DNA of 64,000 nt from a virus: positions 29,745-93,744 of IMG/VR virus record IMGVR_UViG_3300043436_004480; one strand, 5' to 3'. Numbering within the stretch: position 1 is the stretch's first letter; each line of letters starts with the position of its first letter. A program made the position numbers and the translations under genes. Positions 5,726 through 9,720 of this stretch are shown here, in pieces. A model generated the notes under the pieces. It was not told the DNA's origin, did not search any database, and worked only from the letters and a program-made list of their open reading frames with translations.

Positions 5726-6000
5726 ACGTTTATTAAGGAAGGATGTGTTTCTGCACAATACACATCAAATTGTTGTGAAATAAGAACTTTTTAAAATACT
5801 TAAAGTCTCTCCGCAATTTTCTATTAATAAGGACTTCTGCAACGACTTCGCAGCATTTGGAATCTTATGAAAATAGAAATAATTAACTAAGGAAGTTAAT
5901 ACATGATTTTTACTTCTGCACGATACCTCTTACGTTATGAACTAGTCATCGACTTGAGTTACGCCCCACATGTTTGTCATTTCTGAAGAATTTCTGTAAA
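5726..6000. other. Non-coding leader, weakly structured
   Basis: No convincing gene on either strand. It contains short hairpins, for example CTGC-AACGACTTC-GCAG near 5837 and a GATGTGT/ACACATC stem near 5742-5766. Two copies of a TTCTGCAC element (near 5750 and 5910) also occur in other non-coding gaps of this block. Confidence 0.4.
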
Positions 6001-6030
6001 ATAAAAAACTCTCTGATTTCTCAGAGAGTT
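6001..6030 (-). terminator. Rho-independent terminator of the tmRNA gene
   Basis: A perfect 10-bp stem (AACTCTCTGA with TCAGAGAGTT) closed by a GAAA tetraloop and followed by TTTTTTAT on the minus strand. It lies just after the tag-coding piece of the tmRNA. Confidence 0.85.
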
Positions 6031-6064
6031 TATTCACCGTTTTAGTAGGTTTCACTCGTTTAGC

Positions 6065-6109
6065 TTATGCTGCAACTGCAACACGAGAAAACATAGGTAC
6101 TGATTTGCC
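6065..6109 (-). other. tmRNA tag reading frame
   Basis: From a likely resume codon GGC (6107-6109), preceded by ATAAAC, the frame reads GKSVPMFSRVAVAA and stops at TAA (6065-6067). With the alanine carried by the tmRNA the tag would be A plus these 14 residues. The VAA end matches known proteolysis tags. The exact resume codon is inferred from spacing. Confidence 0.7.
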
Positions 6110-6169
6110 GTTTATGGCTTTGCTTTCCTTTCTCAGCGATTTTTCATACTGTCAAAACCGGTCTTCCCC

Positions 6170-6230
6170 AATTTGCAGAAATGCATCTGCACAGTACTAA
6201 AGCGACTGGTTAGCTACAACAAAAGTTGAG
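6170..6230 (-). other. Intervening segment of permuted tmRNA
   Basis: A 61-base spacer between the mature 3' end of the acceptor piece and the mature 5' end of the coding piece. It would be removed by RNase P and 3' nucleases. It contains a GCAGA/TCTGC hairpin near 6176-6191. Confidence 0.6.
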
Positions 6231-6365
6231 TGGAGAAGTAGGGATTCGAACCCTAGTCCAACATGAATTCTACTTCGATACAAGCGGAACGCATCGTAAA
6301 AGTATGCAGAGTTATTTAACTATGCAACTTTAAATTTTAAATCTTTTCCCAGAAAAAGAAAAAGA

Positions 6366-7195: not shown

Positions 7196-7204
7196 ATGTA
7201 GTTG

Positions 7205-7288
7205 CTGCGTACACAGGATTCGAACCTGCTTTGTTCAGACAACACGAGTTTCACGTGCGCAAACAAAATCACCATTAGAAATACGCAG
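7205..7288 (-). tRNA. tRNA-like gene, class II layout, anticodon unclear
   Basis: Minus strand: acceptor TGCGTAT paired with GTACGCA, then G73; a canonical T arm GCAGG-TTCGAAT-CCTGT; a long variable arm TTGT-CTGA-ACAA as in Leu, Ser or Tyr tRNAs; and a 5-bp arm GCACG-TGAAACT-CGTGT in the anticodon position. The seven-base loop lacks U33, and the D-arm region (GGTGA) does not fold well, so I cannot assign an amino acid. CCA is not encoded. It may be a degenerate or non-decoding tRNA. Confidence 0.6.
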
Positions 7289-7340: not shown

Positions 7341-7496
7341 GTAAGTTTCTCTGGTTCTTCCCCTTTCTCTTTGAAACTTACAAATGTCTGAGATTGGAGG
7401 TTCTTGGTTTAAACAAGTCGAAATACGGGATTCATAGCCCGCACTTCAACTCAAAGTATGTTTACTCTTAATAAAATCACATAGACGGAAACATAC
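7341..7496 (-). ncRNA. Candidate structured RNA with three hairpins
   Basis: Three separate stems in 156 bases: 9 bp GTAAGTTTC/GAAACTTAC (7341-7381); 13 bp, all paired with four G-U pairs when read on the minus strand, around loop CTATGAAT (7417-7450); and 8 bp GTATGTTT/AAACATAC (7456-7496). The G-U pairs favour the minus strand. No gene fits here, and no known RNA family is recognised. Confidence 0.5.
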
Positions 7497-9375: not shown

Positions 9376-9457
9376 GAATGTGCAGTCACGCACTGTGAAT
9401 AAGAACTTGTTCTGTTGATTAGACTACAAACAATTTGTTTCTTACATCTGCACATTC
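9376..9457. ncRNA. Candidate cloverleaf-like structured element
   Basis: A perfect 10-bp closing stem (GAATGTGCAG at 9376-9385, CTGCACATTC at 9448-9457) encloses small hairpins TCAC-GCACT-GTGA, AGAAC-TT-GTTCT and AAACA-ATT-TGTTT. The strand is uncertain because the stems are nearly symmetrical. No gene covers it. Confidence 0.45.
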
Positions 9458-9473
9458 ATTTTAACAGAGGCCA

Positions 9474-9543
9474 AGATATAATATGCAAGTTGACAAAAGT
9501 TAATCAGACTTTTGTCCAATGTTATTCTTTCTGCACTATATCT
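9474..9543. ncRNA. Candidate structured element with long hairpin
   Basis: A 7-bp closing stem (AGATATA with TATATCT) encloses a perfect 9-bp hairpin, GACAAAAGT/ACTTTTGTC, around a seven-base loop (9492-9516). On the minus strand the loop is CTGATTA. tRNA-sized, but there is no T arm. Confidence 0.4.
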
Positions 9544-9588
9544 TATTTATGCTCCACGCATACCTCTGCTAAAACTGTCAAACTTTGT

Positions 9589-9695
9589 CACAATGAGAAG
9601 ATTCGAACTTCTAAAGTTTTTCGGATTAGAATCTTGTCTAATCTTACTAAGGAATCTACCGATTTCCTCAACTATTCCACCGACTGGACATTGCG
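9589..9695 (-). ncRNA. tRNA-like element with insert in place of anticodon arm
   Basis: Minus strand: acceptor CGCAATG/CATTGTG (one G-U) and A73, D-like arm TCC-AGTCGGT-GGA, T arm AGAAG-TTCGAAT-CTTCT. Instead of one anticodon arm there is about 60 bases with two hairpins: AGGAA/TTCCT around a loop with CGGTAG, and GATTAG/CTAATC. No seven-base U33 loop is present. At 107 bases it is too long for a normal tRNA. Confidence 0.5.
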
Positions 9696-9720
9696 AACAA
9701 GTAGTTTAAAATTACGACGT

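Follow-up and report, generated by a model that had tools for sequence, protein, structure and literature searches.

A circularly permuted transfer-messenger RNA (tmRNA; ssrA) gene, very probably a working one, lies on the minus strand of the phage DNA analyzed here, a 64,000-nucleotide stretch (the window) belonging to a 93,744-base IMG/VR record. An earlier note on this DNA had claimed a permuted tmRNA in a crAss-like phage, and the ARAGORN call, the Rfam match, the phage marker genes, and covariation among relatives all agree with that claim.

In a standard tmRNA (RF00023), a single RNA begins with one tRNA half and ends with the other, whereas in the window gene the order of the halves is swapped. 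Along the minus strand, the acceptor half comes first, followed by a 61-nt spacer, the coding half with its tag frame, and an intrinsic terminator (Table 1). Every part that had been described is present in the sequence: the halves can pair through an acceptor stem (7/7 pairs, G3-U70 among them) and through a 9-bp P2 helix with two G-U pairs, the tag frame ends in VAVAA before its stop, and the terminator has a stem and a T-rich tail. The interval given for the whole, 6031 to 6310, does cover the gene, but the terminator extends to 6006 and a predicted Hatchet ribozyme falls just outside. CCA is not encoded after A73 in the window copy, where CTC is found instead. A sigma-70 scan detected no promoter on the minus strand; a candidate Bacteroidota-type promoter was picked out by eye.

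Table 1. Features of the permuted tmRNA gene and its flanks in the window
Feature	Position	Strand	Basis or location
Candidate Bacteroidota-type promoter (TTG ... TACTTTT)	6298..6327	(-)	By eye; upstream of acceptor half
Acceptor half of permuted tmRNA	6231..6277	(-)	Sequence, Rfam, pairing
P2 3' strand TTCATGTTG	6267-6259	(-)	Within acceptor half; pairs with P2 5' strand
T arm	6255-6239	(-)	Within acceptor half
Acceptor 3' strand CTTCTCC	6238-6232	(-)	Within acceptor half
Discriminator A73	6231	(-)	Within acceptor half
Spacer between halves, 61 nt, expected to be removed	6170..6230	(-)	Rfam and sequence
Coding half	6065..6169	(-)	ARAGORN, Rfam, pairing
Acceptor 5' strand GGGGAAG, with G3-U70	6169-6163	(-)	Start of coding half
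P2 5' strand CAGTATGAA	6151-6143	(-)	In coding half; pairs with P2 3' strand
D-like GGTTTTGA		(-)	In coding half (6065..6169)
Tag reading frame GKSVPMFSRVAVAA-stop, resume context GCCATAAAC.GGC	6065..6109	(-)	ARAGORN and tag comparison
Intrinsic terminator, 11-bp stem and T-rich tail	6006..6031	(-)	3' of coding half
Predicted Hatchet self-cleaving ribozyme (RF02678)	5901..5990	(-)	61.4 bits; core residues kept

The Rfam model of permuted tmRNA (RF04321, tmRNA_permuted) matches positions 6277 to 6065 (-) at 59.1 bits (window-wide E=6.5e-9), above its curated cut-off of 47 bits. ARAGORN likewise reports a permuted tmRNA, its tag being GKSVPMFSRVAVAA. The model of the betaproteobacterial form (RF01850) matches the tRNA domain at 37.2 bits, under its cut-off of 84. 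The combined T-arm/acceptor/GAC architecture was found at a single place in the window and in 0 of 60 shuffled windows, and the P2 pairing has a shuffle p of 0.0018. Folding the precursor to its minimum free energy improves only mildly on shuffles (z=-1.83) and yields a structure without the acceptor stem; we gave it no weight as support for that stem.

The terminase, portal, and major capsid proteins match PHROG families with those functions, and tblastn places the portal and terminase among Crassvirales records. On these marker genes the phage is Crassvirales-like, as had been claimed, and since portal and terminase identity is ~30% or less, it is a distant member. No near relative was found by DNA in the phage collection; among viral contigs, neither a neighboring protein nor a strict DNA pattern led to a near relative, and one weak terminase match was obtained. 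Relatives were reached through an alignment of the portal.

Both halves of a permuted tmRNA were found in 11 named Crassvirales records, five IMG/VR Crassvirales contigs, one unclassified fecal contig, and the Chryseobacterium phage MA9V-3, and the acceptor-half-first order recurs in relatives. All named Crassvirales carriers are Suoliviridae, and none of the four Steigviridae tested carries a tmRNA. RefSeq or GenBank already annotates "transfer-messenger RNA, SsrA" in the crAss-like records cr114_1, cr115_1, cr125_1, cr60_1, cr52_1, and cr10_1 (NC_055897, NC_055898, NC_055900, NC_055891, NC_055888, and MT774382), as well as in MA9V-3, which is not a portal relative; in the present analysis, the genes so annotated proved to be permuted. 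To these we add unannotated permuted tmRNAs in cr53_1, Bohxovirus, cr4_1, cr118_1, cr56_1, and the five IMG/VR contigs. The earlier note, which was aware of none described for this phage group, thus has to be revised as regards public annotation; among the openly readable papers searched, none discusses tmRNA in Crassvirales. With its kind already annotated in public records, the window gene is a well-founded lead and not a first sighting.

Pairing between the halves was evaluated across 16 phage sequences and 15 pairs; cr56, G027, and G038, which have unusual T-loops, were omitted, and their acceptor stems are likewise kept. Paired cells made up 99.6% of the total, 11 of the 15 pairs had changed on both sides, and 52 cells were double changed. 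The covariation score was 0.636, compared with 0.154 in shuffles (sd 0.025), and it fell to 0.123 or less when partners were slid by one to three columns. Within this set, four of seven acceptor pairs covary, the T stem is 100% paired, and the first three P2 pairs are 97.9% paired, with double changes. G3-U70 is invariant (19/19 phage copies). The points on which the earlier note could have foundered in sister phages (acceptor pairing, G3-U70, and tag frame) have all held, and the substitutions indicate that the pairing of half to half is under selection.

In light of these features, we propose how the RNA would act. One precursor would be transcribed, as in tmRNA biology generally; host RNase P would cut before G1 (6169) and 3' processing after A73 (6231), which would remove the spacer, and a host enzyme would add CCA. 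The host alanyl-tRNA synthetase would charge the molecule with alanine through G3-U70, the two pieces remaining joined via P1 and P2, and together with host SmpB it would free ribosomes that have stalled, marking their products with GKSVPMFSRVAVAA for proteolysis of the ClpXP type. SmpB was not detected in 17 phage records, the window phage among them, and such a phage would therefore rely on the SmpB of its host. The likely benefit is that ribosomes are kept cycling during infection while mRNA breaks down.

A different explanation could be that the phage RNA is a decoy or inhibitor that lowers trans-translation in the host by binding to SmpB, to alanyl-tRNA synthetase, or to the ribosome. There is a precedent in phage DS6A, whose molecule, tRNA-like only and with no tag frame, is reported to inhibit tmRNA (PMC4131195; PMC11915505), and a phage lacking its own SmpB would fit such a role. 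An inhibitor, however, would need neither tag frame, resume context, nor Ala ending, and all three are kept in 19 of 19 phage copies even though the tags are varied apart from beginning with Gly and ending with Ala. This conservation weakens the decoy reading, which we consider very unlikely. A decaying remnant that has lost its processing and use would be consistent with the long branch of the window copy in our tree (0.31) and with the odd tRNA-like fragments nearby that ARAGORN refuses, but the sequence has diverged far while leaving all 7 acceptor, 5 T-stem, and 9 P2 pairs intact, along with the tag frame and the terminator, and we regard decay as extremely improbable. We conclude that the gene very probably encodes a working tmRNA of the phage.

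Stop-codon recoding was considered as a general reason for carrying a tmRNA and was rejected because the window phage, which uses the standard code, ends 6 of the 38 open reading frames checked with TAG. In the portal gene, TAG is read as sense in many tmRNA-bearing crAss-like phages and not in those tested that lack a tmRNA; the window phage, cr118, and G038 have a tmRNA without reading TAG as sense.

The predicted Hatchet ribozyme, which scores above the RF02678 curated cut-off of 51 bits, lies on the same strand as the tmRNA, ~15 nt past the terminator stem and 75 nt past the tag stop. Hatchets were found in 13 of the 37 phage records searched. In 11 relatives with both elements (including cr109, where only the acceptor half of the tmRNA was seen), the Hatchet is on the same strand 1.4 to 5.5 kb upstream of the tmRNA, an arrangement that argues against a general function in processing the tmRNA 3' end. 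No Hatchet was detected in the tmRNA carriers Bohxovirus, cr118, MA9V-3, G027, G043, and G046, and cr1 and G045 have a Hatchet with no detected tmRNA. A shared neighborhood is the simpler reading of this proximity and explains the pattern without a direct link, while a role in read-through transcripts of the window phage's own branch is possible. The compound proposal that tmRNA permutation happened a single time among phages of Bacteroidota, separately from the bacterial events, and that in the window's branch the Hatchet contributes to 3'-end formation of the tmRNA transcript seems to us unlikely. Theta ribozymes beside phage tRNAs (PMC10879173) likewise place a self-cleaving ribozyme next to tRNA-type genes in Bacteroidota phages; they differ from Hatchet in class, and the predicted window Hatchet adjoins a tmRNA.

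Other RNA elements were seen in the window, all on the minus strand. A tRNA-like element at 7203 to 7288 has an 8-bp acceptor stem and a good T arm and is class II-like; ARAGORN rejected it, and its Rfam tRNA-Sec score of 21.8 bits is not significant. A hairpin at 7412 to 7452 resembles an acceptor stem and T arm alone (AGTTGAA ... TTCGACT), and a Leu-like tRNA element at 9587 to 9708 has an odd anticodon arm. After the latter comes a weak Hatchet-like stretch (9437 to 9557; E=0.068 with a model derived from relatives), which was rejected as a second Hatchet with its core bases broken.

Among relatives, the permuted gene itself is variously interrupted. In cr4_1 and cr118_1, a group I intron splits the T-loop (approximately L111:2567-3320 and L112:2579-3337); the two introns, of 754 and 759 nt, are 87% identical to each other, carry an antisense 165-amino-acid HNH-like open reading frame, and match RF00028 at 74.9 bits in cr4. 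A published list of tmRNA kinds includes permuted forms and intron forms, with none that is both (PMC11915505). The spacer holds a tRNA-His in cr114 (L005:3041-3113) and a tRNA-Tyr in G038 (L106:1558-1630), and in cr56_1 an antisense endonuclease gene (L114:2509-3090) fills a 601-nt spacer and overlaps the acceptor half. RAGATH-9 RNAs precede the tmRNA, on its strand, in several crAss-like phages (L005:2517-2684, L021:1303-1482, L111:1044-1205, and L114:1374-1531), and in cr115 the end of the RAGATH-9 RNA coincides with the start of the tmRNA region. A split gene able to accommodate such insertions, be it a tRNA, an endonuclease gene, or a group I intron, provides a natural test case for the origin and persistence of permuted genes.

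The origin of the permutation was approached with a tree of the concatenated cores (45 rows by 89 columns), in which many forks are unsettled, betaproteobacterial and cyanobacterial permuted tmRNAs are not included, and about one-third of the one-piece Bacteroidota tmRNAs, which could not be parsed, are missing. The 20 permuted copies from Bacteroidota-associated phages fall into a single clade (96/84) that joins the one-piece tmRNAs of Bacteroidota; the alphaproteobacterial permuted tmRNAs group apart from it, with gammaproteobacteria. Mean distances from the phage copies follow the same order: 0.383 to Bacteroidota, 0.425 to Firmicutes, 0.467 to gammaproteobacteria, and 0.523 to the alphaproteobacterial permuted forms. 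Phage copies and Bacteroidota also have in common the Gly resume codon and UUUUGAC; host tags of Bacteroidota (GENNYALAA/GNNNYALAA) begin with Gly and alphaproteobacterial permuted tags with Ala (AND...). The Gly codon alone cannot settle the origin, since some Firmicutes share it. The position of the phage clade makes it most likely that the permutation was independent of the alphaproteobacterial permuted lineage, and we judge that it probably arose anew in phages of Bacteroidota.

Alternatively, the gene could have been acquired from an already permuted lineage (alphaproteobacteria, betaproteobacteria, or cyanobacteria), a question of origin that is compatible with a working tmRNA. The sub-threshold RF01850 match to the tRNA domain would fit such a transfer, as would G027, whose 3' block is nearest to alphaproteobacteria and whose T-loop GGCAGTA and AATAAAC..CGGAC context (L104:1520-1556) are as in alphaproteobacterial permuted tmRNAs (L255) and unlike other phage copies. 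The grouping away from alphaproteobacteria, the resume codon and UUUUGAC common with Bacteroidota, and the absence of an encoded CCA in the window copy speak against it, and we find acquisition rather unlikely. An independent origin in phages is made less certain by the small number of columns, the lack of betaproteobacterial and cyanobacterial rows, and the alphaproteobacterium-like T-loop of G027. Of 395 Bacteroidota genomes, only one has a permuted match over the cut-off; the match adjoins phage-type polymerase and helicase genes, and the genome also has its own one-piece gene. This copy, in G309 (L249/L251), has the tag GKVIQMNNAPVRLAA and belongs to a replication module of phage type that also holds tRNAs.

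Three bacterial lineages, as well as mitochondria, are known to have permuted, two-piece tmRNAs. Those lineages aside, the phage clade beside the one-piece tmRNAs of Bacteroidota suggests a further independent origin, in viruses. It also raises a testable question: why should phages that are abundant in the gut carry a ribosome-rescue RNA of their own?

Comparison with known systems helps to place the window gene. Its gene order, G3-U70 acceptor stem, T arm, P2, and tag frame are those of the alpha-, betaproteobacterial, and cyanobacterial two-piece tmRNAs of RF04321, whereas its Gly resume codon and Bacteroidota-like sequence, far from alphaproteobacteria, set it apart from them. Two-piece tmRNAs published for marine phages (Melnitz and pelagiphages; PMC9004378) are phage encoded and permuted as here, but they reportedly group with their hosts' proteobacterial or cyanobacterial lineages (alphaproteobacteria in the case of Melnitz) and can include a glutamine riboswitch. 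The SsrA genes of Crassvirales records are permuted, phage borne, and from the same host phylum; in most of them the 5' UUGACUGUUAGGUC block is conserved, the tags follow the pattern GN..DYTR, and the Hatchet lies upstream, and the window gene differs from them in its tag, its short spacer, and its downstream Hatchet. One-piece Bacteroidota tmRNAs (RF00023) are closest in sequence and have the Gly resume codon, and those of some Bacteroidales have the GCCATAACTGGCAAC context, like the window gene, but they are not permuted. What is new is the set of 20 permuted phage tmRNAs as one clade beside these one-piece relatives, a placement that argues for independent permutation.
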